Part shown: positions 2,935 through 20,059 of the stretch, in pieces | How positions within the stretch are numbered: position 1 is the first letter of the stretch | How the letters are laid out: each line of letters opens with the position of its first letter | Assembly (NCBI RefSeq): GCF_000150955.2 | Contig: NC_011676.1 | Span: 1-64,000, forward strand | Length of the DNA: 64,000 nt | Reading direction: 5' to 3' | Source of the DNA: Phaeodactylum tricornutum CCAP 1055/1 | Lineage: Eukaryota > Bacillariophyta > Bacillariophyceae > Surirellales > Neidiaceae | Position numbers and translations under genes: made by a program | Notes under the pieces: model-generated | Told to the model about the DNA's origin: nothing | Database searches by the model: none | What the model saw: the letters and a program-made list of their open reading frames with translations, nothing else

Positions 2935-3591
2935 CAAAAGGTTTCATTTTGGAATCTCTATTTTAGTCTCACAATCTCAATCTAAAAACCTACAGATTAA
3001 AACAATCGGAGCCTCTACGAGGCTTTCCCCCCAACTTCTACTCTTTCGTCGTATTCTACAAATACACTCGTAAGCAGGTAGAATCTTATCAGTGAGACAG
3101 GCTATCATACGAAGTATTTTATGGTGATTCAAGTTACAAGAAGGGTTTGCCGACTTTCCCGTTCTCAACAAGTTCAGTGTTGGGACAAATTGCATTTGCA
3201 TTATATTTGTCATTGCATGCAGTGTCGAAATTTTATTTTTTTATTTGGTTCCCTATTTTTCCCATTGTGGTTTTGAGGGGACACATTTCGCCAAGGTTAT
3301 GTTCATGGTCTCAATGTGAGGGGACTAGAAAAACCCTACGACAAGCATATCGGGGGTTCTTTATTCCTTTATCTTGGGTTTATGCTTATAAGTCTCTGTT
3401 TTACGTCTTTTTATCGTATCTACAATCCTTTGGTCCCACAGACACGTTTTAACCCCTTATCGTTGCAGTTTTCTAGTATTGAAGCGTCACACCATCTTTT
3501 AGCAGGGCTTTATTCGTCTGTGCTGATGGTATGGTTGTTTGTGAAGTGCAAGTACTACAAACTCAAGAAGCCATTATGGTCGCATTCTAAT
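2935..3591. other. Intergenic, nothing recognised
   Basis: Between the copia LTR and the 3' end of the GUCD1-like gene. I see only short open frames without recognisable motifs and a T-rich patch near 3230-3260. Confidence 0.5.
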
Positions 3592-4548
3592 TTACTTCAC
3601 GATGAATATTATATCATGGTCCGTTCCTATCGAGTCCCAAGCCAGCTCCAGCGTTACTGGATTTAGAAAAGTGACTTTTTCGTCCGACGCCGGGTTGTGT
3701 GCTATAAAGCACCAGCTGGGGCTGTTTTCCCTCCAGGCATCATGACACGCGGTCACATGTTGGGGTTTGCTGGAAACTCCCGACAGAACGAGATAATGCC
3801 CGGTATAACAGCTTTCTCTACCTAGCTGGCCAGGGACATCTTGATCCATTAGCATTGCATTGTTGACTAAAACTATGGCAACAGCATTATCATCCGACAG
3901 TATTGCAACGAGATCATCCACTCGCAACTCGCCTTGATGAACTGGAATATTCATTTTGGATACGGCCTGCAAACGATGCTGGACTCGTTTCCGGTCCTTG
4001 TCGAACGTGGATTGATAATAGTCAAGAGCGGCCAAGGCTGTATTGACTCGCAACGTATCGGAACAAAACAATAAGTTAATTGGAAGCTGCAGTTTGTCTT
4101 TTAATCCTTGCAAAAGAATGACAAGGTCCACGGTCCAAATGGATTGTGTCGAAGCAAAGCGAACCATCCAGTCTCGTACTGCTGACAGCGGAAAAGCGTC
4201 AACTCTACAGCTTTGACAGCACCACAAGTATACCATCTCAATGCATGCAATACCGCAGTCCCATGATTCCCCTTGGCAAACGTGAGGAAAGGTATCGGAA
4301 GTAGACTGTGGTTCCGTCCTGTGCAACATGCGTCGCCGTCTTATTCCTAGTAGCTCGGCCCTTTTGACATCGAAATCGCGTACTGCTGCATTTTCCGCCT
4401 TTTCTTCTAGCTGTGAATCGGCATCGGGATCTGGCAATTCGCAGTCGAAAGATCGCAATGTCCGCGTTTCTCCGTCTAAAGACGTACTACTGGCGCTGGG
4501 TGGGTCTTGTCTACATATTGAAGGTCTCCACCAGTTCTTCCAAGACAT
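3592..4548 (-). CDS. GUCD1: GUCD1-like protein (Guanylate_cyc_2 family)
   Basis: A 318-residue intron-less protein. The central region carries the conserved signature of the GUCD1 / plant guanylyl-cyclase-1 family: WDCGIACIEMVY near residue 95, GHYLVLSG near 250 and AHNPAS near 285. In family terms these Cys, His and Asn positions resemble the triad of a C39-like papain-fold peptidase, and whether any member truly makes cGMP is uncertain. Length is somewhat above the usual 220-280 residues because of an acidic N-terminal extension of about 85 residues. The first ATG (4548) is used, and no signal peptide is visible. It is transcribed divergently from the plastid SAP-repeat gene. Family identity is confident; biochemical activity is not. 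Confidence 0.82.
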   Translation of the reverse strand: MSWKNWWRPSICRQDPPSASSTSLDGETRTLRSFDCELPDPDADSQLEEKAENAAVRDFDVKRAELLGIRRRRMLHRTEPQSTSDTFPHVCQGESWDCGIACIEMVYLWCCQSCRVDAFPLSAVRDWMVRFASTQSIWTVDLVILLQGLKDKLQLPINLLFCSDTLRVNTALAALDYYQSTFDKDRKRVQHRLQAVSKMNIPVHQGELRVDDLVAILSDDNAVAIVLVNNAMLMDQDVPGQLGRESCYTGHYLVLSGVSSKPQHVTACHDAWRENSPSWCFIAHNPASDEKVTFLNPVTLELAWDSIGTDHDIIFIVK

Positions 4549-5000
4549 AGCAATTTTTTGGCTCTGGTAGCGGCTTGTTAACCTAGTCTCGAATAGTGAT
4601 TGCCGTCCCTTTTATGACGATGTTTCATGTTCAAAGTCAATTGCTTCCGTGATGTCCAAGCTGACTGTGAAGCTGTTGTGACAGCGTATGTCGACGGTGT
4701 TATTCTGTAGGCTGCCATTACGAAACTCTTTTCGCTGCCGAGTAGCAGTCGGCGACTCGGGTAGCGTAAGGACATTTATCGGAAACGACGTACGGCAGAC
4801 ATTTGGGACCCACTCAGATAGAGAATGTATTGACAACCAAGCAAATCTTACCCATCCATGAACCATTTCTCTCAAACGATCACAGTCAGTCCATTCATCA
4901 ATTCCTCTGATCCTTGACAAAGACTTCCTTCTACAAATTCTTTTCTCGACGGAGTGCTGTTATTGTGTATCGTTTTCGTTACCAATTACGGTTGTTAATT
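4549..5000. promoter_or_regulatory. Divergent intergenic region
   Basis: A 452-base gap between the start codons of two divergent genes, so it should hold both promoters. CTGACTGTGAAG at 4661 resembles a motif seen upstream of several genes here. The plus-strand frame of the downstream gene is open back to 4914 but has no ATG before 5001. Confidence 0.45.
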
Positions 5001-7031
5001 ATGTACTGGAAATGTGCTGTCTTGATCGTAGTCGTGGTGGCTCGGAATTCCCAAGCTTTCACGATTCCGACGCCTTTGTCTATCACAACAGTGGGCACCG
5101 CGCCGAGTGCTAGGAGCGATCAACGCTATTCGTTTTTCGCCACCGAACGCGATGAATACGACGACTTCTACAACGATTTTGATCCTAGTGCGGACTACAC
5201 CGACGGTCGTCGCTACGCACAAGATGCGTACAGTGATCGCGGCCGACGTGGAGGAGCTGATGGTTTCTCTGCGGCTGGCAGTCATGACTATGAACGTGAT
5301 ACGTCAAGGGACAGCTCCAGCGTTGATCTGGAAACCGTAAACTCTCTCATCGCGGCGCGCTTGCAAGCCCGGAAAACGGGACAATTTGAAGAAGCGGACG
5401 GTATCCGTGACGACTTGTTGAAAATCCATGGTGTGTCCGTGTGGGACCGTGAAAAAACGTGGCGCAGTGGATGTAGCGAGAGTGGATCGGGGATGCGACG
5501 ATCTGGTGGCCGAGAACAGAGTTCTGGTCGCGGGGATCGTGGAGGTCGACGAACCCGTGAGCCCAAGGATTTTGGTCCACTCGGGCACGACTACACGGCG
5601 TCGTCCGATGCCGGTCCCGTGTCTTCAGCCATCACTGAAGACGAGATACACGCTCTTTTGGCGGAGCGACTACAGTACAAAATGTCTCGACAATTCCAGG
5701 ACGCCGATCGAGTGCAAGAACAGCTCTTGTCCAACGGTGTGTACGTCCACGACGCTCGTAAAGAATGGCGGGCTGACGGTGTCATGTTTGGTGATTACGC
5801 GAACGAAGGGGGCAAACCGAGCCGTGAACGAGGCTCGCGCAGCGACCGCAATCGCCCATACGCCCAATCGGAATACTCTGATGGCGAAGTTCTGACGTCG
5901 GAGCAGCTGCAAAGTATTGAAAATCTGCTTTCCCGTCGTTCCGGAGCTAAACAGACCCGTAACTATCGTGTGGCTGACGACATTCGTGACGAATTGAAAA
6001 ATGATTTTAATGTGTTTATTGAAGACCGTCTTCGTCAGTGGTCTGTCGGAGGAGATTTTGGTCCTGATCAGCCTGGATTCGACGATATGAATCGCTCATA
6101 CACAATATCTGCACATTCGCAGCCTGTTACGCCGGCGGATGAGGCCTTGATTATTACCGAGTTGGAAAAGCGGTCCGAAGCCAAGAAATCTCGTGACTTT
6201 GAGACTGCCGACGCCATTCGAGATAACTTAATGGACAACTTCAATGTTGCTGTCAACGATCGCTTACGAGAATGGTCAATTGGTGGAGAATTTGGGCTAC
6301 CATCAAAAAGCAATGATAAGAATCGCCCTTTTGCTCGTCGTGGTGGCGGTGACTTATCCGACGAAGAAGTGGCAATCGTGACTTCCCTGGTTGAGGAGCG
6401 TGATCAGGCAAAGGGTAAGCGTGATTTTGCGACTGCCGACGAAATTAGAGACGAGCTGGAAGCTCGCTTTTCTGTCAAAGTAGATGATCGTTCACGAGAA
6501 TGGCGAGTCATGTCGGATGACTACGTCTTTTCACCTCTGGCGGGCGGGGATCATGGATTTGACGAGGACACGATTGTCTACATTCAAAAGCAACTTGCAT
6601 TGCGGCTAGTGCACAAGACAAATAGAGACTACGAGGCAGCGGATGAAGTCCGCGATGAGCTCAGAGACAACTTTTCAATTTCAATTGATGATCGCACCCG
6701 TGAATGGTCCATTAACGTCGACGAATACTCTGTTGTAGTCGACCGGCCATCTCAGAGGATCCCTGTGCAGCACAAACAGGAAAATGGATATGGTGCTTTG
6801 GAGGACAGCGAAATCGAGGACGAAGTTCTGTTGTCAGCGATGGACGACTTTTTCAATGAAGGCGCCATTGCGGATGAAGGGGAGTCGCAATCCAGCTCTG
6901 AATCGGTATTAGTGACAGGGGGCAACCTAGAGTCTCTAACAGTGGCTGAGTTGAAAGGAAAACTAAAGGAGGCCGGCTTGCCCGTTAGTGGACGCAAGGC
7001 AGAGCTGATTGAAAGACTTTCTACTGCATAG
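5001..7031 (+). CDS. Plastid-targeted protein with six CysRS-tail-like repeats and a C-terminal SAP domain
   Basis: A 676-residue intron-less protein. The first ATG at 5001 gives a signal peptide (about residues 1-19, hydrophobic core AVLIVVVVA) ending SQA-F. This is the diatom ASAFAP-type plastid presequence, so plastid import is likely. The body has six repeats of about 45 residues with the pattern AxxxRDFxxADxIRDxLxxxFxVxxDDRxREW. The pattern resembles the C-terminal helical region of cysteinyl-tRNA synthetases (ADxIRDxL followed by a Trp), but no catalytic synthetase domain is present. Spacers are Gly/Arg/Ser-rich. The last 35 residues are a SAP motif (LTVAELKGKLKEAGLPVSGR), a short DNA- or RNA-binding helix-loop-helix. 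A nucleic-acid-related plastid role is inference; no function is known to me. Confidence 0.85.
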   Translation: MYWKCAVLIVVVVARNSQAFTIPTPLSITTVGTAPSARSDQRYSFFATERDEYDDFYNDFDPSADYTDGRRYAQDAYSDRGRRGGADGFSAAGSHDYERDTSRDSSSVDLETVNSLIAARLQARKTGQFEEADGIRDDLLKIHGVSVWDREKTWRSGCSESGSGMRRSGGREQSSGRGDRGGRRTREPKDFGPLGHDYTASSDAGPVSSAITEDEIHALLAERLQYKMSRQFQDADRVQEQLLSNGVYVHDARKEWRADGVMFGDYANEGGKPSRERGSRSDRNRPYAQSEYSDGEVLTSEQLQSIENLLSRRSGAKQTRNYRVADDIRDELKNDFNVFIEDRLRQWSVGGDFGPDQPGFDDMNRSYTISAHSQPVTPADEALIITELEKRSEAKKSRDFETADAIRDNLMDNFNVAVNDRLREWSIGGEFGLPSKSNDKNRPFARRGGGDLSDEEVAIVTSLVEERDQAKGKRDFATADEIRDELEARFSVKVDDRSREWRVMSDDYVFSPLAGGDHGFDEDTIVYIQKQLALRLVHKTNRDYEAADEVRDELRDNFSISIDDRTREWSINVDEYSVVVDRPSQRIPVQHKQENGYGALEDSEIEDEVLLSAMDDFFNEGAIADEGESQSSSESVLVTGGNLESLTVAELKGKLKEAGLPVSGRKAELIERLSTA

Positions 7032-7442
7032 GGTGGGAAAGTGGAAATGAGATTGGCCTGTAATTTGCGGTTAGTCAATCTCGCAAATGGATAAGGTAGA
7101 TTGTAATAATCTACAGTATGGAACTTTCAGAAGCCAGTGCTGTATGCAGTTCACACTTTGCGCCGAGTTTCACTAGTGTTACTGCTAGTGTTTTCATACC
7201 CAGCCAGCTACAGTTAGTCCGATCGGTTGTCGTGTATAAACGTAAAAAAAGGGCCAGCACAGCGATCGCCTGACAGTTTTCCTAACACTACAAGGAACTT
7301 TCACAGCGGTCGTTCCTCCTACCTTGAGACATCAACCGAAATTGTGCCATAACTTCGAAAGATTGTTGTACTTTCCTGGAAACGCCACAGAGCAGTGCAG
7401 CGAATAGTGAAAGTGAATAACAACCCAGCGAAACACAGAAAG
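7032..7442. other. Intergenic between SAP-repeat and selenoprotein genes
   Basis: 411 bases holding the 3' end of the upstream gene and the promoter/5' UTR of the selenoprotein gene. No RNA gene or repeat seen. Confidence 0.45.
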
Positions 7443-8126
7443 ATGAAAAATAGAATCACGAGTCTTTTCAGGTGCGCTCATTTGCTGGCGTTTTGCTTCC
7501 TTGCTTACTCATTCGCCAGCCCGGAAGCCGACATCGTTTCCTGTGGAGGATGAATGTTAAACCGCATGCCCGAGCTCAAAAGCTTTCTCAAAGACGGCGA
7601 AGCAGAATGGTATGTGGGGGTTAATGTGACCTACGTTACGGGTCGTCGAGCGGTCATGCACATATATAACGAAGGAGGGAGCAAAGTGGAGGTCATTGAT
7701 TTAACTGTAAGTAAGTTGCAGACGAAAAAAGCATTGCATGCTTTGATGGCAGAAGAAGAATTTGTCAAAAGGTCGGAGGAAGCAGTAGAGATGCCACACG
7801 AAGAGAGACAAGCAGGGGCGCGAAAATGGCGACGCCCGCGAAAGCCTCGCAAAATTATGAATCGAGACCAGGAACTGGCGCTGAAAGAAGCTACACTCAG
7901 GAAACAGCAGAGACACAGGGAACCAAAGCTAACAGAGCGAGATTTATTGGGGAAAACCGCACCCACCGTTACCTCTCCATTTTTGCTGTACGGAGGACTC
8001 CTGGCAACGGCATCGTGTACAAGTGTTCGACGACGTAGAACACGAAGACGACATACAATGACAATAGGCGAAGTTCGGAAGGGTGATGCTGGATTTCAAA
8101 AATGGAAAAGTGTTTCGGTGATGTAA
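7443..8126 (+). CDS. Sep15/SelM-type selenoprotein, TGA read as selenocysteine
   Basis: The frame opens at ATG 7443, passes a single in-frame TGA at 7551-7553, and runs to a second TGA at 8124. Read through, it gives 227 residues: a signal peptide (core LLAFCFLAYSFA), then Cys34-Gly-Gly-Sec37 followed by MLNRMPELKSFL. Sep15 and SelM selenoproteins have a thioredoxin-like fold with CxxU or CxU just ahead of an LNRLPEVK-like helix, so the match covers both motif and position. The middle continues as the family's strand-rich domain (WYVGVNVTYV, MHIYNEGG). A basic region follows, then a hydrophobic stretch (FLLYGGLLATA) near residue 185 that could be a membrane anchor. The likely location is the secretory pathway/ER, acting as a redox protein. 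An alternative model starting at Met 7554 would lose both the signal peptide and the active site. Confidence 0.8.
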
Positions 8127-8142
8127 GGTATAGAGGGCTGAA

Positions 8143-8199
8143 TGATGTCATCAGGGTACCTATCTTGCTTTGCGTGAATACGGTAAAATGGCGACTGAT
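8143..8199 (+). promoter_or_regulatory. Weak SECIS candidate in the 3' UTR
   Basis: A eukaryotic selenoprotein needs a SECIS hairpin in its 3' UTR. Here TGAT (8143) and TGAT (8196) could form the non-canonical quartet. They enclose GTCATCA pairing with TGGCGAC (one mismatch) and TACC pairing with GGTA. The apical AA expected about 11 bases after the quartet is not evident and the lower helix is poor, so this is only a candidate. The true element could lie elsewhere in 8127-8410. Confidence 0.22.
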
Positions 8200-8410
8200 C
8201 GAGAACTCCACACCGCGGCTTTCGACGAGTAAATCTTTACATGTTGTTTTACCGTTAATCAATCAATCTAACGCTTATATCATTTCGATAGCCAACGATG
8301 CAATGATGTGCTATGCCGCCAACGATTTGCAAGTGCGTCATCGCGAACTAAAATGATTTCGTGGGTAGCATAACGTCTCGAAAAGGCATACTGCGTGGTG
8401 GATGCATTAA

Positions 8411-10436
8411 TTAGAATAAAGAGCTAGGGTCCACACCTTTTAACTCATCATCGTCCGCAACATCGGGGATGCCGCCTCTTCCAAACAAGGCATCGGTCAA
8501 TGGGTCTCCACCAATAGCTTCTCGTCCGGAAGCAGACGGTTCTTCATCAATATCGTCCAGCATAGCTCTTCGAGCCGCTTCGGTTCGTTTTTTCCGTGCC
8601 AATTCTAATTCTTTCGGGACGCCTTCCTTTTCTGTGTCCTGTCTCACTACTTGGTCCTCTTCCAGCTGAATTGGTTCTGTTTTGGATGGTACTATTTCTT
8701 CAACGTTTGCGATAGGAGTGGTGCCTCTCGAAGCAATCCTATCCAATTCTTCAATTAAGACATCACCAGCCATTGCCGTGGCACTGGTCTCGGGTCCGCT
8801 CAAGGTTGAAATTACGCCACCTTCGCTCTTTCCCAATCGTTTTTCCAAGGCTTGCAACAAGACATTGACAAGATTACCTTGCTCCACCTGAGATCGGTCG
8901 ATCTTATTGGCGGCGGGGGTAGAATCGCTTGCCAGCGACATGTCTTCCTCAGAAAGCTTTCCTGTTCTTTGATAGTCCTGTGCAATTTTGAGTGCATCAT
9001 ATTCCCGGCGATTGACCTTGAAATCAGCAATCCCACTCCAATCTCGTAGTCGTAGCATAGTTTCCAACTGGCCGACGCCAAGAGACGACAATGTCTTTTC
9101 ATTTTGTTTGTAGACGAGACCAGTCGGAATGCCCTTTTGGGCGGCCCGTACTTGGCTGGTCCGTAATATATTGATCATGGGCCAAGGTGATCTTCGAGCA
9201 TAGTTGCCAGCCTGGGCTTCACCAGCACGAGCATTGCCATCCCTAAACACCCACTGAGGATGGAAAAAGACCAGTTGCAGCAAATCTTCGACGTCTAAGG
9301 CCGTCAAGGGTTGCGTCAAAGTATTCGAAAACGACTCAAAAAGCTCTACGTTGTCTCTCATGAACTCAGGGACGATCAGTAGCGTGGTGGAAATGTCTTT
9401 TTCCTTGTTTTGCTCGACCCGAACCACCTCGTGCCAGTATTTGGCGTACATCTCTTCGACTCCCGTGCTACGATCGACTTCGTAGTGCACGTTGCCCATC
9501 GGCAAACCGGCTTGTTCAGGACCAGCAGTAAACGGACAAAGTCCCATATCTGTCATCATCTTACCGACCCATGCTTTAGTAATGTCAATAATGTCTTCGT
9601 CATCGTCCGGAACGACTACTTCAATCGCCGGATAAGGATCCTTGGCCATATCGTCGTCATCTACACCCGCGTAGAGGTTATCAAAATCCGTCCCATCATC
9701 CCAAAAGGGATCGTAGCCAAACTCGTACTCGTCTTCTTTACTTTCGCTGTTCCTGAAGCTTTTCACAGTAAATCCGACAATCTTGCCGTCTTTCTGGTAC
9801 GGCACCAGTGCCGTTGAGATACCAAAGTGGTCGCAAACGTCTTTGCAAAAGTCCAGATGGCCCATGAGTAGATTGAGATAGCGGGGTGTGAATTTATCTT
9901 GAATTTGCGGATAAATCACCGTATTTGTTTCCTAAGTCAGGGGACAAAAAGGAATTGATCAGGAAACACATGAGACGGAATGAATCTTTGTGTCGGTGCA
10001 GATAGAACAAAAGTTTTGACGAGCAGCATGTAAAGACGAGACCAATCCGTCAACCCTCAATTCCTGCGTATCAATTTCTCTGCCAATCTATAGCGCGACG
10101 CAGACTTACTCCTTTCGACATGGTTCCAGCATGCGCAATTTGATCCCAGACGCCGGCCAATAGCTGGGGCGTGGTAAAGGCAGGATCGTGTGGATGCCAT
10201 TCGTCATCGGTGAAGAAGGAATCTGGATTTACGATACCTTTCAACGTTGTCCTTGAACTAGTGTAAGGGGCGTGCGACCCTACAAAGGACGACGGCCGCT
10301 TCTGCTGGACACTGCCTGTACGAAGGTGATGGCTCTCACTCCGCCGTCGGTGTTGCGGCTGGAACGCAAAAGCAGAGGCCATGTTCCGCGTAATTGCCAC
10401 TACTAAGAGCCACTGTTGAAAAAGTTTCTTCCACAT
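8411..10436 (-). CDS. Plastid-targeted DUF1415 protein, two exons
   Basis: Exon 1 is 10436-10110 and exon 2 is 9931-8411, joined in phase 0 across a 178-base intron (GTAAGT donor, CTTAG acceptor), giving 615 residues. Exon 1 encodes a signal peptide ending ASAFAFQP, the diatom plastid presequence motif, then a Ser/Arg-rich transit-like stretch. Exon 2 holds the DUF1415 signature: TKAWVGKMMTDMGLCPF, then TTLLIVPE, LLQLVFFHPQWVF and RRSPWPMINILR. The family is found in bacteria and algae and its activity is unknown to me. An acidic linker precedes the domain and a long charged, low-complexity tail follows it. Exon 2 alone has no ATG before the domain, which supports the spliced model. The gene lies tail to tail with the selenoprotein gene. 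Confidence 0.82.
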
Positions 10437-10970
10437 TCTTCCAATAAACGAAACAATGTTCTACCACAGAGTTCTTTGCCGGATTGAAGACTCCTACAAA
10501 TGGTGAAGCGATCTTTTACCTGTTGATGGCGGAGTTTTCGCTTTCGATTCGGTAACGGAGTCAAATTTTGTTGTGACAAGGTCGTATAGCGGACAGACTT
10601 TCATTGTTGACGAGAGGTGATGTAGACTATCATGTCGTCCAGACATTCACACTCACTTCGCGAACGTTCCAAGGTTCACGAAAACTTGATTGGAATTGGT
10701 TCTTGCCCTCTTTGCATCATACTTATGTATTGACCGTGAGCGGTGCAGTCAGCCATAGAGACAACGCAACGCAACACTACTCCACTCCAACGGATAGAGA
10801 CGCGTTTCATCCACGGTGGCCGAGTCGGAGAAATGCACAAGAAAAACCTGACACAATGGAGCGCCTCCGAGAAATAAGGTGCCGCTAGTTTCTCAACGAC
10901 GAAGAGTGAAAGATCTGTTCCCTCTCCCACACAAAATCCTGGAACAGAGACATCTGCCCACTTCCACATC
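10437..10970. promoter_or_regulatory. Divergent intergenic region
   Basis: 534 bases between the starts of the DUF1415 gene and the ankyrin-like gene. TTGACCGTGAG at 10730 resembles the motif seen upstream of other genes here. No other feature recognised. Confidence 0.4.
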
Positions 10971-12461
10971 ATGTCCCGGACGACAGCAACAACAACGACA
11001 AGCCAAAAAGCAAAATATCGCGACGTGGCCACGGAGGACGATGCCTTGAATAGCACCAACCTTACGGCGTCACTTCTATCACTGTCAAGGGTATTCGCTG
11101 TAACACACTGGCAAAAATCCAAAGCCTTGTTGTATTCCAACCCGTCCCTCATGACTTACCACATGTTGTGTTTGGCTTTGAAACATCATGCTTCCGTTGA
11201 CATCATCGCTTCCATGATTCAGATCAACCCCAGAGTTGCGTCTGTTCCCAAACAAGGGCTGTCACCGTTGCAAGTAGCTGTACAGAGCTCCTGCAACGTT
11301 GAAATTATCAGAGTTGTGATCCAGGCCTGCCCTTTGGCCCTGATAAAAACCAATCCAGAATCGCGATGGGATCCTCTTTCGTACGCCAAGCGCTTTCGAG
11401 CCAACGAACCGGAATTGCTTTCATTGCTATCCCGTCCTCTCAGTGATTGGCTGACCAGCACCAATACACCTCCAGCCTATCAACCGTCGCCAGTTACTGA
11501 AAGCCAGTCGACAGCGAGGAGCGATGTGACAATCCCCTTGCTCCGATCCGCCAATACACGCACACAACGAACCACGAAAAAAATATTCTCGAATTTGCAG
11601 CAACCCGCCGCAACGCGACCGTGGCCAATGTCGCTACTGAACTCGTCACCAGTCAATTCGATGCGCAGTTTCTGTGATGCCACAGAATCTGCCATGGCGC
11701 AATTGAGAGAGGAGAACCCGTGTACCTATCGCACGGCGCCTTTCGCATCCGACAAAAGTACCACCGATCATTTTTCAGCAGGACGCCTTGAAATGGAAAA
11801 TCTGAAAATGCTCTGCTTGGCGGTTCTAAAAAGTCAACGAAAACTCATCATAGATTTCCAGACCTTGATATCAGACAGAGAAGAGTCTGGTCTAAAAGGC
11901 ACCGATCCATCTTCCTCTCCTTCAGTCGCACAGCCTTTCCCTCGCGACGCAACAGCCTTGCGGGCATGGCAGGAAACGTCAACCCGTCACTTTCGAACCC
12001 AATTGATTGCGCTGGATATGAAGGAAAAGGCAATGAAAGCACACGTGAGAGGAGTTGAGCGGCGGATTATGCATCGACTCCAAGACTTGCAAAAGGAAGC
12101 GATTGTCGTGGCTACAGAACATTTTGGCGAGCAATTGAAAGACATTCAGGATTGCTTGAACCTCCTGCAGCTCAGAATGAATAGATTGGACGAAACGTCA
12201 AAAATTACTCGCACGGGTAATCCCGACCCTATCCATTCCACCGCACTTTCTAATCATCACCAGCGCAACGCGGTCACGGAGATGGTTTCGTATACTCCCT
12301 TTGCCTTTGCGGAAGAAGGCAAGACAAACGAGGATGACGATCTTCGATCGTTGCTAACGGATGAAAGTTTACTGCTGACGGACCGCAAACAGCAATTAAT
12401 GGATCGACCAGCAATCAATGTGTTGCGTGTCATATTTTGCCGAAGTCCTCGTCAGTCCTAA
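10971..12461 (+). CDS. Ankyrin-like repeat protein with C-terminal coiled coil
   Basis: A 496-residue intron-less protein. Residues about 50-150 contain two to three ankyrin-like helical repeats, with motifs such as LSPLQVAVQSSCNVEIIRVV followed by a PLSYA turn, a style common in diatom hypothetical proteins. Residues about 150-260 are Ser/Thr-rich and probably disordered. Residues about 325-405 form a long charged helix (MKEKAMKAHVRGVERRI, RLQDLQKEAIVVATEHF) likely to be a coiled coil. There is no signal peptide or membrane segment, which suggests a cytosolic or nuclear scaffold, but I do not recognise the protein. Start at the first ATG, following an A/C-rich stretch. Confidence 0.7.
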   Translation: MSRTTATTTTSQKAKYRDVATEDDALNSTNLTASLLSLSRVFAVTHWQKSKALLYSNPSLMTYHMLCLALKHHASVDIIASMIQINPRVASVPKQGLSPLQVAVQSSCNVEIIRVVIQACPLALIKTNPESRWDPLSYAKRFRANEPELLSLLSRPLSDWLTSTNTPPAYQPSPVTESQSTARSDVTIPLLRSANTRTQRTTKKIFSNLQQPAATRPWPMSLLNSSPVNSMRSFCDATESAMAQLREENPCTYRTAPFASDKSTTDHFSAGRLEMENLKMLCLAVLKSQRKLIIDFQTLISDREESGLKGTDPSSSPSVAQPFPRDATALRAWQETSTRHFRTQLIALDMKEKAMKAHVRGVERRIMHRLQDLQKEAIVVATEHFGEQLKDIQDCLNLLQLRMNRLDETSKITRTGNPDPIHSTALSNHHQRNAVTEMVSYTPFAFAEEGKTNEDDDLRSLLTDESLLLTDRKQQLMDRPAINVLRVIFCRSPRQS

Positions 12462-12582
12462 ACATTCCTGACAAGACGATTTTACATTAAACGCTGTAGC
12501 AATACTGGTAGGCAACGTAGTAAGTTTGGCTGCATTTTGACTGAATTGAAATAGCCCTTGGTTACAGTTGCGTTTCGATTTG

Positions 12583-13302
12583 TTAACCCTTGGCGTTTCG
12601 GGCAGCCCGACGATCGGCGCGAGAGGTGGCGTGGTACCCGGACCGAATGGGGGCTACGGATCGGGAGCTCCCGCAGTCGCGGCAGGTACAAAAGTAGAGA
12701 CGAGAGGCTTGATTTTTGACGAGATCAGTATTGGGCGAACGGCACATTTCGCACGTCACGTATTCGATGACGTATTTCCGCAGTAGACTTTCAATGTACT
12801 TGGAGAGGTACTTGCCTCGAATAATGAGACGCTGATTTCCGTCCATGGAACCTTCGGTCCCAAGTTCTGCCATGAAGAATTGGTAAACATGCAGAGGATC
12901 GCGCTGCATCATAGAGCAGATCTCTTGGTAGTTAACCCAGAGAGTCTTCTTGCTGGACAACAGCTGGAGTTGCGGAGGCTTGATGCGGGTCCGCTTCTTT
13001 TCAACCAAGTCTGGATTGTTGGCTTGCAGCAAATCCACGACCCGATCCAGGAGTTCTTCGTACGTGTACTCGGCCTTGCGGTCATCAACATCTTCCATTT
13101 CTTGGGCTTCGTCTTGTTCTTGTAAGAGCCGCTGCTGTCCCGAAAGGTCGGGAGCGTTCGTGTCGTCCTCGTCGGTAGTCTTGGATTTGGAGGACGACGT
13201 CTTTTTCTTTTTCTTCTTCTTTTTCTTGCTCAGGTCCAACATGGCAGCGACGTCAGCCTCTTCTTCGACGTCGCTCATAGTCTCTTGCTCTTCTTCGGTC
13301 AT
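12583..13302 (-). CDS. EIF2S2: Translation initiation factor eIF2 subunit beta
   Basis: A 239-residue intron-less protein. eIF2-beta is part of the eIF2 GTPase complex that brings initiator Met-tRNA to the 40S subunit and contacts eIF5 and eIF2B. The sequence shows an acidic N-terminus and one lysine block (nine Lys near residue 30) of the K-box type. The conserved aIF2-beta/eIF5 core contains YEELLDRV and KPPQLQ, then HVYQFFMAELGTEGSMDG and RLIIRGKY. The C-terminal zinc finger is CEMC...CTCRDC. Only one clear K-box is present where animals have three, so it is shorter than the human protein. The identification is secure. Confidence 0.96.
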   Translation of the reverse strand: MTEEEQETMSDVEEEADVAAMLDLSKKKKKKKKKTSSSKSKTTDEDDTNAPDLSGQQRLLQEQDEAQEMEDVDDRKAEYTYEELLDRVVDLLQANNPDLVEKKRTRIKPPQLQLLSSKKTLWVNYQEICSMMQRDPLHVYQFFMAELGTEGSMDGNQRLIIRGKYLSKYIESLLRKYVIEYVTCEMCRSPNTDLVKNQASRLYFCTCRDCGSSRSVAPIRSGYHATSRADRRAARNAKG

Positions 13303-13893
13303 AATGGCACTGATAGGTGTTTGCTCGGAAAGTGGTTACCAAGTATGGTCGATCGTATCGACACCTCCCATCGTGGGGCAAACCCGACAGGCTCCTAAAC
13401 GTGCCTGCCGCTGGAGCAAAAAGACAGACAGACGTGGGGTCAACCTGGATCGTCTGGACTGTGCTCGTCTGGGCCGAAATACGACTGGCATCCGGAATCT
13501 AGGAAGAAGAAATGAAGTTCATTCTTCAGGTGTCTCGGCTGCAACAAGTCCACGACACTAAACTGACTCAGTGGATTTAAGAACGTCACTTGGTTTTGGG
13601 TGACGCTTCGTCGCAAAACATTAAATGTACTCCATAGTATACGTCTAATGACACGACTATTTCTCCGAACAAACGAAAATCCCCAGTTTCCACGAGCTTC
13701 GAATTTGTTCCCATCGGTTCCCGCTACGATGTCTTGTCCTTTTCTGCCGATGCCGATGGCCACGAACCTGCCGATCCCAGGGAAACCTCGTAGCGGCTTC
13801 CTACAACATCGATCTCCTCGATCTCATAATCTTTGCACTCGTGTGCCATCCTAAAGCACACACACGTTATTCACTCTACGAAAAGGTCAGATC
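13303..13893. promoter_or_regulatory. Divergent intergenic region
   Basis: 591 bases between the eIF2-beta and Old Yellow Enzyme start codons. No repeat or RNA gene recognised; both promoters must lie here. Confidence 0.4.
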
Positions 13894-15137
13894 ATGAGCA
13901 ATCTTCAGATACTTTCCAAGTTCACCGTTGGTGGACAGGAGCTGCAGAACCGTGTCGTTCTGGCCCCTTTGACCCGCGCTCGGTAAGCGGCAAGAACGAA
14001 CTATTTTGTGCCCAGTGTCGAACACGATTACTCACTGTACTCGTGTTTCAATTCTATAGCTGCACACCTACCGAAGATCCGCTCGATACCGTCTCCCGGA
14101 CACCGAACGACCTCATGGCGACTTACTATGAACAACGTGCGTCGGCGGGTCTCATCATTACGGAAGCCACTGCCGTTTCTGAAGAGGGCTACGGCTGGCT
14201 CAACAGTCCAGAGCTTCGTACCGAAGCACAAATGGAAGCATGGAAAAAGATCGTGGATAAGGTACACGCCAAGGGATCCAAGATTTATGTCCAATTTTGG
14301 AATATGGGTCGACAAGCCCATTCGTCTTTTCACGTCGAATCCCAACGCGTAGTTTCGGCGTCCGACATTCCCATGGCCGACTCTTTCAAGGTCAAGTCAT
14401 CAACCTTTGAAGATGTACCGCCCGAAACACCCGTTCCCTTGACGGTGGACGAGATTCAAAGTGTGGTCGCAGATTTCGTACATGGTGCCAAACTCGCTCG
14501 TCAGGCAGGCTTTGACGGAATCGAGATCCACTCCGCCAACGGATATTTGATTGATCAATTCTTGCAGTCCAAGACCAACAAACGCGCGGACCAATACGGC
14601 GGAAGCATGGAAAACCGCTTTCGCTTTTTGAAGGAAATTGTGCAAGGTATCGTGGACAGCGGAGCCTACCCCTCGAATCGGATTGGCTTTCGAATCTCGC
14701 CCAACGGAGTCTTTGGAGACATGGGTAGTGAGGACAACGCCCAGATGTTTACCTTTGTGGCGGCCGAAATGAGTAAACTCAAGGTGGCCTACCTGCATCT
14801 TATGGATGGTCTCGGCTTTGGATACCATGGATTATGTCCGGCAGTTACGGCTGCCGATATCCGTAAAGTCTTTGACGGTCCCATTATTTGCAACGTTGGA
14901 CTTACGAAAGAAATTGCCGAAGGGATGATTCGCTCGGGTGCCGCTGATCTGGCCTGCTTTGGACGTTTGTACATTAGCAATCCCGATCTGGTCGAACGTT
15001 TCGCCAATGACTGGCCTCTAGAACCTGAAGCTGCTTATCAGCACTGGTGGCAACACGTTGGCGCCAAAGGTTACACCGATTGGCCAACGTACAAGCCATC
15101 CGAGGAAGATAGCGACGACGCTCAGAACGACGAGTAG
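13894..15137 (+). CDS. Old Yellow Enzyme family flavin oxidoreductase, two exons
   Basis: Exon 1 is 13894-13982 and exon 2 is 14060-15137, joined across a 77-base intron (GTAAGC donor, CTATAG acceptor), giving 388 residues. Exon 1 supplies the family N-terminus (GGQELQNRVVLAPLTRAR), which runs straight into CTPTEDP after splicing. Exon 2 carries the FMN-binding TIM barrel with IHSANGYLIDQFLQ and a NKRADQYGGSMENR-type motif. It then has GFRISPNGVFGD and a C-terminal phosphate-binding loop region ending ACFGRLYISNPDL. The family reduces alpha,beta-unsaturated carbonyls with NADPH (NemA, plant OPR). No targeting peptide is seen, so it is probably cytosolic. Reading without splicing would give a spurious N-terminus from 13833. 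Confidence 0.93.
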
Positions 15138-16574
15138 GCTGCTACTACAAGAGCTCGAAATTTCGTGAATGTGCCACGTTCCTGCACTTTGCGGTTGGGT
15201 TCTAAAGTTTAGATCAATTACTTACAGTTAGAACGCTACAGCTCCTCCTCTCATCCAGATCGGGATCGCTTTTGATTAGAGAAAACGTTTTTGATTAGAA
15301 ATTAGGAAGCAACCATTCGATGTCGCCTTGGAGTGTGTGATCGTAGGGGTTGTCCAAACTGACCATAGGACGTCAGGAATTGACTGTAAGTAGCTCTTCT
15401 CCGATAACTCACGCTCGGCAAGTCGAAATTTGCCGTAGAATATTCGATTTGACCACTCGAATCGACGTGCTAGGAATCTTGCGTTGCTTTGCAAGCCATC
15501 ACCTCATCGTTACCCTGTTGCTCTGGCTCGTCCATCTCGGTTCGGCTGGCTTCTGTCAGGCCTGCTGCGATGAGGTTACCCGTTCCGCTGGAGGGTTAAA
15601 ACACAAGTTGGCCGAGCGATTTTCTGCATAGAATAAATCATTTCCCTACAGCTCCTTGAACTTTAAGACAGTTAGTACCACAACCCGTACAATGCTTATA
15701 TTTCTGACTGTTTTGCGAACGACCGGTATTAATAATTGCGTTACAGTTTGTTAGGAACACTCTAGTACTAGTGCATTGTGAGCAAGGCTGTGCAGATTTG
15801 TCCGTGTCCGTGTCCGTGTGTGCACCGTCAAAGAGGTACCATCCCGGTCACTTGCTTTACAGTTATCTCGTTCCAAAACAGACACTCCCACTCTCAACGG
15901 CTACTGGTACGCCAAACAGCACGTTCGATTGTACTATTTATATAAGTAAATACAGACTTGCGGTATCCGTATTTCGTTGAAGATCCAAAGTGAACAGCAA
16001 TTATGTAAAATTCAATACCAATAGCACACATAGTACTTACAATAGTAGAATTTTTGTACGGATAAGTAGAATGGACACGATAGGCATATTTGATCCAACA
16101 AAAATGGAGTACCTCCATTTTCGTAGTAGTCGTATGAGGCCGCTCTTCTCTAGTGATTCAAGACGCTGGGCTGGGCTATTTTGTATGTTCCAGAATGAAT
16201 GCAATTAACGTCGGAATAAGAAACAATAATAAGCCGCCATTTCTCTCTATATACGTTTCATCCGCGATTGCCAAGCGTGACCAAAGATAGGAAACTGGTA
16301 AGAGCCAAGAATAGCTGCCGTGTGTTTGGATTACGGGGGCATCACCAGCAACGGTAGTTAGTACCCTATACACCGTATCCTATCGTCGATTCCTCCCTCC
16401 TTGCTACTAAAATTTCGTACCATCCATCATATCTTGTGTGTCCGAAATTTGCGCACCACCACATTGACTCTACTGGACCGAGTAGTAGTGTGACACCATC
16501 CCCATTCACCTCCTTCCCCCCAATCCAAGAAAAAAATATTCTCACATTCGGTTTATGTAAAAGGAGTGCACGCA
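15138..16574. other. Long intergenic region, small repeats only
   Basis: 1.4 kb without a convincing gene. It contains TTACAGTTAG at 15222, a short TGTCCG repeat near 15799, and a near-perfect palindrome AAAATGGAG-TAC-CTCCATTTT at 16101-16121 that could fold as a hairpin. A 93-codon open frame at 15350-15631 has a hydrophobic stretch but no recognised motif. Confidence 0.5.
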
Positions 16575-17429
16575 ATGACCTTTACTTCCATTTGTACCGC
16601 AACACCCCACAACGCGAACGATCTGACGGAACCCCTTCTACCCCAAGGATCCGGCGTAAAGGCGCCGCCCGCAAGTGCCGTCATCGGTAGGAATGGGGAA
16701 GACGACCGCGACCCAGACACAACGATTGTAGAAAGCAACGACTCCTACCACAAGGAAGACACCGACGATCCAGCGTGTTCCTGTACCATTTCCATGGGTT
16801 TAGATCGCGACAAGCTCCCCCACCAGCACCAGCACAAATACCAGTACAAGCAGTCACACACAAACAGTGGCGATGTTTCCGTGGTGACTTGTCAAGATAC
16901 GACGTTCTTGTTGCTGATCTTTCCGGCGCTGATTGCCATTCAATTCGGAATCGTCTTTTGGTCGATTTCGAACAACAACGCCACAACTAACAGTGAATCG
17001 ACCAGCGTGCCCAAGATTACCGTAGCGTTGGTTGATCACTGGCCCGTCGTGAACGCCACTATTGCGCTCTTTGCCATTTCAACCTGGTTGTACCGTCTGA
17101 CCTTGCAGGAATGTCGAGTTACCAACGTTGTCTTGTTGTTGGTCCCCGAAATCTTGCTCAACATTGTGCTGGGTCTCGTCTTATTTGGACAAGCTCTGTG
17201 GGGATTTACAGTGCTCCTCGTATCGCTTTTGGCGTTGTGTAGTCTGGTGGTTCTGCATGGGGTCTACCAGCTGTTCTGTGATACGCGTGACGTCGACGAC
17301 GTTGTCGAATTGCGTGACGACGAAATGTATCATGGCGAGCAGCCAAAAGTCAACGACAAGAAGCCAGAAAGCCAGGACGAGGAGGAGGACTATGGCTACT
17401 ATTGCCGATGCCACGCCATCGTTTGCTGA
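16575..17429 (+). CDS. Multi-span membrane protein, TLQEC family member 1
   Basis: A 284-residue protein starting at the first ATG (16575). The N-terminal 110 residues are polar and acidic, with a TEPLLP dileucine-type motif that in plants and algae can direct proteins to vacuolar membranes. Four hydrophobic segments follow (about residues 112-132, 160-180, 190-212 and 216-240). Between the second and third lies WLYRLTLQECRV, which recurs almost unchanged in the protein at 52029-52700, and the protein at 49287-50252 is a more distant relative. The C-terminus is acidic and ends in Cys/His (YYCRCHAIVC). I do not recognise the family; transport or scaffold roles are both possible. Confidence 0.72.
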   Translation: MTFTSICTATPHNANDLTEPLLPQGSGVKAPPASAVIGRNGEDDRDPDTTIVESNDSYHKEDTDDPACSCTISMGLDRDKLPHQHQHKYQYKQSHTNSGDVSVVTCQDTTFLLLIFPALIAIQFGIVFWSISNNNATTNSESTSVPKITVALVDHWPVVNATIALFAISTWLYRLTLQECRVTNVVLLLVPEILLNIVLGLVLFGQALWGFTVLLVSLLALCSLVVLHGVYQLFCDTRDVDDVVELRDDEMYHGEQPKVNDKKPESQDEEEDYGYYCRCHAIVC

Positions 17430-17672
17430 GGAAACGAATCGCAACAAGTCTCGTACAAAGACGCTCTACAACCTAATTCTACTACTATATATGCTTCTGC
17501 ATGCGTACTAATGTAACGACATTAGCCCCTACCGCAAAATTATACGAACTGTTTACGTACTATTACACTCGACCAATTAGTTCATTCCGTCCGGCAACTC
17601 ATAGCAGGCCACACACACCGAGCCTGTATAGAGGGGCAATTTGTTTAGAGACACGCACGTAATCTATTCTAG

Positions 17673-19676
17673 CTACAAGTTGCGCCATTGCGGGGGAAGA
17701 AGTTCGTCCGGTAGACCGATCAAGTGTCGAAAAGCGTTGGGCAACTGTAAATCACTCGTTCCGGGGGCCGGGAAAAATTGCATCGCCGATCGGGGTACAT
17801 CCGTTCGCTCTGTTCTTACAGCGGTTTCGGCGTCGGGATCGACCGTCAATTCCAGCTCGACCGTGTACCAGTCCTTGTTGTCTTCAATAAACCGATCAAG
17901 AATGTGACATGCGTATCCGTAATCATTGTCCCGCCAATGGAAAACGTAGGCCTCCTCGCGATTTATGGTATTCTTGAGAGCGTAATGGCACCGAATTTGC
18001 AAATTGCCTGGATACGGATCGAACCTTTGTTCGTCTTGCGTCCGCAGTGGGGTTTCGCGGGCGACTTCATTCATTGTGGTGGCACTACCGTAGCTTATAG
18101 CATCCACGACCCCATTGTACGGCTGCCATGTGTCGACGTGTTCCCGCCACGCTTCTTCCCATACGGCGCCGTAGTCAAGTAAGAGTTCCTCACCGGGCTC
18201 GATGTCCCTCGTTGCGAAGTAATCCAAGGCAAGACGTGGCTTAGTATCGTTTTCCAAATCTTCCACCGTCCATGATTGTACAACTTCATCGTCGTGAACG
18301 ACGTCAAAATCGACCGCCCATCTGATTTTTACATTGGCGAGTGTTGCGTCGTGATTAATGTAGTTGATACCGGATCCGTAAGGACACAATATAACGGTCG
18401 TCTCTTCGTGTCCAAAGCAATAGTTCAAAAGGATCTGGGATCCCACCACAGTGTCAACATGTTTCTGATAGTGTTCATTGTCGTTTTCGTCAAACATCGA
18501 GGTGACATTGTACAGATTGAAGAAATCAGCATCCGCCACGTGCAGCAGAGGCGTGGTGGTGATGACTTGGTCACGCAGCAAGCTTCGCACGGCAAACGCT
18601 CCACGCCCGGCTTGCGGTACGATGGTACTCGTTCGCGGTTCTACATGATCTATGCATCGTCCGTGTTTTTCCAGCCAGGCCACATCCCGCGTCGCGGATG
18701 GTTGGTGTAGGGCGGATATTGTGTCTTTGGCGGCCAACGTGGCGTCGGCCCAAGACTGGGGTAAGGCATTGAGGGTGCGCGATTCAAAGGCACCGGCATT
18801 AATTTTCTGTAGCAAACCAAACCAGTCCTCCAACAGATTGTTGCCACTGCTGACGTTGACGCCATCGCGGGTACCCAAAGCTCGTTGCAGTAGCAGCACC
18901 ATTTTTTCATTCATGTCTTCCGCCGTTTCGTAATCCTCCGAAAGTGGGATCAGGCCAAAAACATGAGGTCTTGTTTGGAACCAGTGATCCCCATAGAACT
19001 TGAACAATTCTCCTCCCGCTGGAATGTGTCGGGACACGTAGGTGGTTCCGTTGTGGTACGGGGAAAAGGCGCCGGTTCCAGGATCGCGGGATCGGTGTAG
19101 CGCTCCGAAGTCGTCGTAGACGGGGACGGCTTTCTCCACGTTAACGAGTGCAAGATGACAGTTGATGGCACAGTCTAACCCCGGGCAGAGTGCTTCCACG
19201 TCGTCCGAGTCGGTTTCGTGCGACATGCCCATGGTGTCTCCGGACCAGAAATAGTCCGAAAAGGGTTGCGTGATGCCGTCGGCGTGCCAGTACATATCAA
19301 TGACGGGAATGCAAATATCTCCACGTCCTACCGTATCCCCAATTTGCTTCTCCACCGCCGTAAATATCCCCACGCCTGCACCAGGAATGGTGGAGGGTGC
19401 CAAGTACAAGTCACAGGTGGAATCCGACAAATCCGAAGAGACAATCATTCCAGCATTGGTTGCTTGCCGATCGATATCGTCGTCGTTGCTGCTTCTTTTA
19501 CACACGGAAGTACCATCATAGGCGATTGTGCACGTTTGCTTCGGATGGCTCTGTGCGTGAGAACCGACGGTCACTGTCAGTAGCAAGTATGCGGTCGTGA
19601 CAAAGCTACACAAGGCTTTCGTGTCCAAGCCCGCCGTCCGGTGGAGTATACATTGTCGTCGCTCTATACTTCGCAT
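17673..19676 (-). CDS. Secretory-pathway protein with two SET-like domains
   Basis: A 667-residue intron-less protein starting at ATG 19676; the frame stays open upstream but without an ATG. Residues about 20-42 are a signal peptide or anchor (CSFVTTAYLLLTVTVG). A first SET-like domain spans about 85-260 (PSTIPGAGVGIFTAV, then IPAGGELFKFYGDHW). A second spans about 345-520 (QAGRGAFAVRSL, INYINHDATLANVKIRW, and GEELLLDYGAVWEEAW, the NH..C / ELxxDY SET hallmarks). SET domains transfer methyl groups from SAM to lysine. With a signal peptide the target is probably not histone, and diatoms have several such genes. The C-terminal 120 residues are of unknown nature. An 82-base piece of this gene (18913-18994) recurs at 27066-27147. 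Confidence 0.85.
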   Translation of the reverse strand: MRSIERRQCILHRTAGLDTKALCSFVTTAYLLLTVTVGSHAQSHPKQTCTIAYDGTSVCKRSSNDDDIDRQATNAGMIVSSDLSDSTCDLYLAPSTIPGAGVGIFTAVEKQIGDTVGRGDICIPVIDMYWHADGITQPFSDYFWSGDTMGMSHETDSDDVEALCPGLDCAINCHLALVNVEKAVPVYDDFGALHRSRDPGTGAFSPYHNGTTYVSRHIPAGGELFKFYGDHWFQTRPHVFGLIPLSEDYETAEDMNEKMVLLLQRALGTRDGVNVSSGNNLLEDWFGLLQKINAGAFESRTLNALPQSWADATLAAKDTISALHQPSATRDVAWLEKHGRCIDHVEPRTSTIVPQAGRGAFAVRSLLRDQVITTTPLLHVADADFFNLYNVTSMFDENDNEHYQKHVDTVVGSQILLNYCFGHEETTVILCPYGSGINYINHDATLANVKIRWAVDFDVVHDDEVVQSWTVEDLENDTKPRLALDYFATRDIEPGEELLLDYGAVWEEAWREHVDTWQPYNGVVDAISYGSATTMNEVARETPLRTQDEQRFDPYPGNLQIRCHYALKNTINREEAYVFHWRDNDYGYACHILDRFIEDNKDWYTVELELTVDPDAETAVRTERTDVPRSAMQFFPAPGTSDLQLPNAFRHLIGLPDELLPPQWRNL

Positions 19677-20059
19677 CGTCTTTTGTGTGTTACGTTGCGA
19701 ATATTGCAGAATACACACGGTGAAAGGGATCCAAGAACGGGGTCGGCGGCGTCCACTTCTCTTGACCAATTCTGGGTTACAGTTAGCATCATTGTGATAA
19801 GGACCCAACGACGGCTGTTGGGATGTACATGCTCGCAGCTTGCGTTCACGTTATTATTAGATACAGTAAATCTGGAATATGAACGTAATTTCTGTAGAAT
19901 GTTTCCTGTACTTACTGTTAGTTGGACGACTTCAGACTTCAGAATGGACATTCTTCATACGCTAAATATTGTATCCGGTTTCTCCCATATGTCCTTTCCT
20001 GACCCGATCAACCTTCCGATGAAACCTAGACCTACCTCTCTGATACTAGCTAGAGTTGG
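19677..20059. other. Intergenic upstream of SET gene
   Basis: 383 bases with TTACAGTTAG at 19777 and CTTACTGTTAG near 19911. The SET gene's promoter should lie here. Nothing else recognised. Confidence 0.4.

Follow-up and report, generated by a model that had tools for sequence, protein, structure and literature searches.

This locus raises the question of whether an in-frame TGA codon close to a chromosome end of Phaeodactylum tricornutum is a stop or is read as selenocysteine (Sec), and, in the latter case, which selenoprotein is encoded and which SECIS element directs the recoding. The stretch that was analysed, hereafter the window, comprises positions 1-64000 of contig C8 in a genome of 27.45 Mb and 88 contigs. 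A distance of 7.4 kb separates the gene from the chromosome end, since the window begins at a telomere (positions 1-216 consist of 36 perfect CCTAAC copies). The features of the locus are collected in the table.

Table. Observed and predicted features of the SelM locus (window coordinates)
Feature	Position	Strand	Basis
SelM read-through CDS, 227 residues, Sec (TGA) at residue 37, stop TAA	7443..8126	+	Reading frame; PF08806; frame and TGA retained in C88
Probable signal peptide (residues 1-26): basic part followed by a hydrophobic one, S-F-A preceding S-P	7443..7520	+	Sequence reading, hydropathy
Sep15/SelM redox domain, residues 30-95	7530..7727	+	PF08806, 43.1 bits; six-frame genome search, one TGA inside
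TGA very probably read as Sec, CGGU-MLNR motif	7551..7553	+	Translation, alignment to closest PDB entry, motif count
Fast-changing C-terminal extension: acidic, basic linker, hydrophobic segment (about 7965-8027), RRRRTRRR tail	7758..8123	+	Haplotype comparison
SECIS-like element	8332..8408	+	Descriptor (C88), folding of both haplotypes
SECIS-like helix I	8332-8345/8394-8408	+	
SECIS-like ATGA core	8353-8356	+	
SECIS-like helix II, as folded in C88	8357-8366/8375-8383	+	
AA of apical loop	8372-8373	+	
SECIS-like 3' core	8385-8386	+	GG in window, GA in C88
Haplotype difference G (window) / A (C88), 3' half of sheared G-A tandem	8386	+	
AATAAA, possible poly(A) signal shortly after the SECIS candidate	8415..8420	+	Sequence reading

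Translation confirmed that, as the initial annotation had stated, ATG 7443 and the TGA at codon 37 (7551-7553) share the frame of the downstream domain; the same frame ends at TAA 8124-8126, and the nearest in-frame stop 5' of ATG 7443 ends at 7352. A standard gene caller had been predicted to start at Met 7554, and the table-11 ORF call indeed begins there, giving an ORF of 190 residues. The open frame 5' of the TGA is no evidence by itself, because dinucleotide shuffling of 7443-7550 also left it open in 1495 of 5000 cases. The motif TGYGGNNGNTGANNNYTNNNNMG occurs once in the 64 kb against 0.01 occurrences expected from shuffles, a count that is no independent test, the pattern having been composed after the sequence was seen. 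A looser form of the TGA motif is not specific on its own, since it matched 27 times genome-wide against 9 times for the reversed control pattern. At the level of sequence, the evidence for read-through is the family match that spans the TGA, rather than the open upstream frame. Against PF08806 (Sep15_SelM, cut-off 26 bits) the read-through protein scored 43.1 bits, and the match crosses the TGA, bearing out the expected family similarity around residue 37. Three candidates were scored when the whole genome was searched with PF08806, and the cut-off was exceeded by two, the present locus and its second haplotype, each with one TGA inside. Rather than a stop, the internal TGA is very probably a selenocysteine codon.

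The closest PDB match is selenoprotein M (2a2p; phmmer E 6e-5, 25.8 bits), which we take to be the mouse protein, with the CGG-C/U-x-LNR motif aligned. The match to Sep15 is far weaker (phmmer E 0.23, 14.1 bits), and because of this difference the initial Sep15/SelM-type label can be narrowed: judged by its motif and by the closest solved structure the protein is SelM, and the Sep15 part of the label falls away. The Pfam redox domain is common to the diatom protein and Sep15 (SELENOF, PDB 2a4h); Sep15 has in addition a Cys-rich N-terminal domain and a CxU motif, whereas the diatom protein has CGGU, and inspection of the region between the putative signal peptide and CGGU found no Cys-rich UGGT-binding domain of the Sep15 kind. 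With SELENOM (PF08806, 2a2p) it has in common both the Sep15/SelM domain and the CGG-U/C-x-LNR redox motif, to which it adds a basic/hydrophobic C-terminal extension of about 120 residues. Animal SelM carries a signal peptide and ends in a KDEL-like retrieval signal, whereas the diatom protein ends in SVSVM. The candidate signal peptide holds the most hydrophobic 19-mer of the window protein (Kyte-Doolittle mean 1.47). Its S-F-A-S-P resembles ASAFAP, the diatom plastid-targeting motif; plastid targeting was rejected, since the redox domain starts a few residues further on, too close for a transit peptide to fit in between.

Other approaches to the family were less productive. A single-sequence AlphaFold model had a mean pLDDT of 48, too poor for use. 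Protein-guided scans with patterns that did not include the TGA motif, made in a contig collection reported to hold no relatives of this genome, gave 28 pattern stretches in viral contigs and 81 in genome contigs, and tblastn found no relatives among these. As DNA, the TGA motif had no match in the viral contig collection; its four matches in the genome contig collection were judged by eye, after translation, to be chance.

We also found that the genome has genes for making Sec. Two tRNA-Sec genes (on C21 and C9) scored 78.7 and 66.5 bits with an Rfam cut-off of 47, a family that gave signal in 14 of 14 control genomes and exceeded the cut-off in five, and both have a TCA anticodon according to ARAGORN. 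SepSecS was matched at C5:919039-920423 (E 2e-75), and there is one match to the SelD family. This search covered tRNA-Sec, SepSecS and SelD. Further TGA-containing genes, which served as controls, were found in two families: two of the three GPx matches (on C18 and C11) contain a single in-frame TGA, and so does one of the three Rdx matches (on C17), which we take to be SelT-like. No extra controls came from the SelU-like (6), MsrA (9) and SelD (1) matches, none of which has a TGA inside; one SelU-family match contains a TAA. A partial second SepSecS match with one in-frame TGA was seen at C5:914004-914586, some 5 kb from the full one, and is possibly a decayed tandem copy.

A second copy of the SelM gene is present on contig C88 (22989-22297, minus strand), with 96% protein identity and with the TGA kept. 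C88 is colinear with window positions 3476-19795 (99.0% over 16.3 kb) and itself terminates in TTAGGG repeats. On these alignments C88 is most simply the other haplotype of the same chromosome end; it could also be a duplicated chromosome end, because outside the colinear stretch only weaker or short, repeat-like matches are common. The window is repeat-rich at 22242-27146, where it holds copies of C88 sequence (mostly about 84-93% identity), among them many short-spaced ones at 25.3-26.6 kb.

Between the haplotypes there are no differences in residues 1-105. In the C-terminal extension ten codons differ, eight of them non-synonymously and two synonymously, and within the hydrophobic segment there is a 12-base in-frame indel. 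The extension is unlikely to be a chance frame, because only 26 of 5000 shuffles stayed open; no Pfam family matched it at E up to 1. The hydrophobic segment, pointed out initially as unusual for the family, proved membrane-like in C88 (19-residue Kyte-Doolittle mean 1.83) and weak in the window haplotype (1.06), so that a membrane anchor is plausible for the C88 form and doubtful for the window form.

For the SECIS we used a descriptor consisting of NTGA, helix II, an apical loop with AA or CC, GA and an outer helix I. A SECIS had been anticipated in 8127-8410; in C88 the corresponding flank gave a good candidate, whereas the window copy has GG for GA in the 3' core and does not fit the strict descriptor, the sole hit in its flank being a weak CTGA/CC arrangement elsewhere (-8.6). 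The element starts 205 bases 3' of the stop codon and stops 2 bases short of 8411, the stop codon position of a convergent DUF1415 ORF. All three control genes yielded a candidate in their 3' flanks, with scores of -17.9 (GPx, C18), -25.9 (GPx, C11) and -25.0 (SelT-like, C17), compared with -23.0 for SelM in C88. The first version of the script recovered both GPx candidates, although that of GPx C18 was outscored by a CTGA site farther downstream, and missed the SelT-like one; the spacing limits were widened after the SelT-like flank had been read by eye, and the SelT-like gene is not an independent control. With an AA-only filter three of the five flanks still score, the exceptions being window SelM and GPx C11, the latter, we think, because the script logged its CCAAAACC loop under CC.

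Flank shuffles reached the observed score in 2 of 400 cases for C88, 6 of 400 for GPx C18 and 0 of 400 for the SelT-like gene. Both strands of the window (128 kb) served as a null. Of the 55 hits found there, whatever their kind, 13 scored -17.9 or lower and 3 scored -23 or lower, and single moderate-score hits thus mean little; only one of these 3 combined ATGA or GTGA with AA. In both haplotypes unconstrained folding gave two helices, I and II, separated by a large internal loop; in the window copy the top of helix II is rearranged and one apical A is paired. The stability of the element is unremarkable for its composition (z -1.0 in the window and -1.4 in C88; -0.5 and -1.4 with longer ends). 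Rfam SECIS_1 had no match in window positions 7400-9000, none at gathering scores in the whole window and none in 101-base slices around the element of C88, the window and GPx C18. Genome-wide it gave two hits, both below threshold, and by eye the frames upstream of them showed none of the selenoprotein genes identified here. Since all three control loci were missed too, Rfam is uninformative as a SECIS detector here.

The element contains three haplotype differences: one in the internal loop (8349, T in the window and G in C88), one in helix II (8376, T/C), where G-U becomes G-C, and one in the 3' core (8386, G/A). The G at 8386 changes the sheared tandem A-G, G-A into A-G, G-G. The SECIS core was called essential for Sec incorporation, and mutations of the G-A pairs abrogated L30 binding (PMC3706390). 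A variant in the quartet core of the human SELENON SECIS is listed as pathogenic (PMC8584023); the diatom difference is likewise a point change in the conserved quartet core, but it is a natural haplotype difference of which the effect is only predicted. From the GG core and this literature we infer that full-length selenoprotein is probably produced in smaller amounts, if at all, from the window haplotype. The G could be an assembly error, or a diatom SECIS-binding protein could tolerate it. A tentative reading is that the strain is heterozygous, the G haplotype recoding UGA poorly or not at all and SelM coming from the more membrane-like copy, or else that G-G is tolerated; we regard this as possible, though with the balance somewhat against it.

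With considerable confidence we propose that the gene encodes a Sec-containing selenoprotein M, on the strength of the reading frame, a family match that spans the TGA, the retention of this codon in both haplotypes, the genes for Sec-tRNA and its synthase and the SECIS-like fold. The mRNA would be polyadenylated soon after 8420, and at codon 37 Sec-tRNA would be supplied by SBP2 and eEFSec bound to the SECIS. The putative signal peptide would bring the protein into the endoplasmic reticulum, where the CGGU pair would act as a thiol/selenol redox site, and the basic and hydrophobic C-terminal extension may tether it to a membrane, most plausibly in the C88 form.

It is very improbable that the TGA is a real stop and that the 190-residue ORF from Met 7554 is a SelM relic without the redox site. 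That ORF is intact and passes the Pfam cut-off alone (31.8 bits), and the GG core of the window copy would fit with it; the family match, however, continues across the TGA to its 5' side, where CGG is present, and the genome has the Sec machinery as well as other TGA genes. Residues 1-105, with the putative signal peptide and the TGA, are also identical in the haplotypes, which is weak evidence of constraint as it comes from one locus at about 1% divergence.

Two further explanations accept a selenoprotein gene. The SECIS might be another 3' stretch, e.g. at about 8143-8198 or at 8304-8346, considering that 8079-8246 and 8278-8348 are free of haplotype differences and that hairpins fold between TGA and GA in such stretches. 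Neither of the two stretches meets the descriptor, however, and both are without the ATGA, apical AA and GA arrangement of the three controls, and we consider this unlikely. The gene might also be a decaying subtelomeric selenoprotein gene that lost its SECIS first in one haplotype. The G at 8386 and the 8 to 2 ratio of non-synonymous to synonymous codon differences in the extension are in line with such decay, but neither the domain nor the TGA is damaged or differs between the haplotypes, and the change at 8386 may have run in either direction (G to A or A to G); decay, too, seems improbable.

SelM is already known as a kind of protein in diatoms, and the present gene adds a well-supported member. 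Two SelM selenoprotein genes were reported in 2007 for Thalassiosira pseudonana by SECIS search (PMC2375036), and these are diatom SelM selenoproteins too, likened here by their description and not by sequence. A 2020 survey describes SELENOM among the algal selenoproteins, with 20-44 selenoprotein genes per diatom (PMC7539508), and the gene itself may stand in its species tables. The SELENOM fusions described there, with pVHL in Aureococcus and with ShKT in Emiliania, are likewise SelM proteins with added parts, whereas the extension found here belongs to no Pfam family. A literature search for Phaeodactylum with SelM or SELENOM returned nothing on point, and one for a SECIS haplotype difference in an alga gave no such title among the matches listed.

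What the analysis supplies is the correction of a gene that ordinary calling cuts short at the active site, together with SECIS candidates for SelM and three control genes from this genome. The surprising part is the haplotype difference in the SECIS core, the effect of which is only predicted. Should it be real, two natural SECIS cores can be compared within a single strain, in nearly identical mRNAs, which makes the G-A rule easy to test directly in a stramenopile; tolerance of G-G, if true, would loosen a requirement regarded as essential.

Two other ORFs came to attention. On C25 (about 274701-274790, minus strand) lies a 201-residue Sep15/SELENOF-like ORF that is Cys-rich (CxxC...CRTCC) and has no CxU where expected. 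It matches the C-terminal part of PF08806 only (14.9 bits, below the cut-off) and had no PDB match, and it is presumably Sep15-like, going by the Cys pattern of Sep15. It fits the Sec-less SELENOF 'other homologs' described for algae (PMC7539508). Upstream of the SelM gene, the ORF at 4914-7031 matches CysS_C (the anticodon-binding domain of cysteinyl-tRNA ligase) and has a C-terminal SAP domain, and further CysS_C-similar segments were recognised in it by eye.
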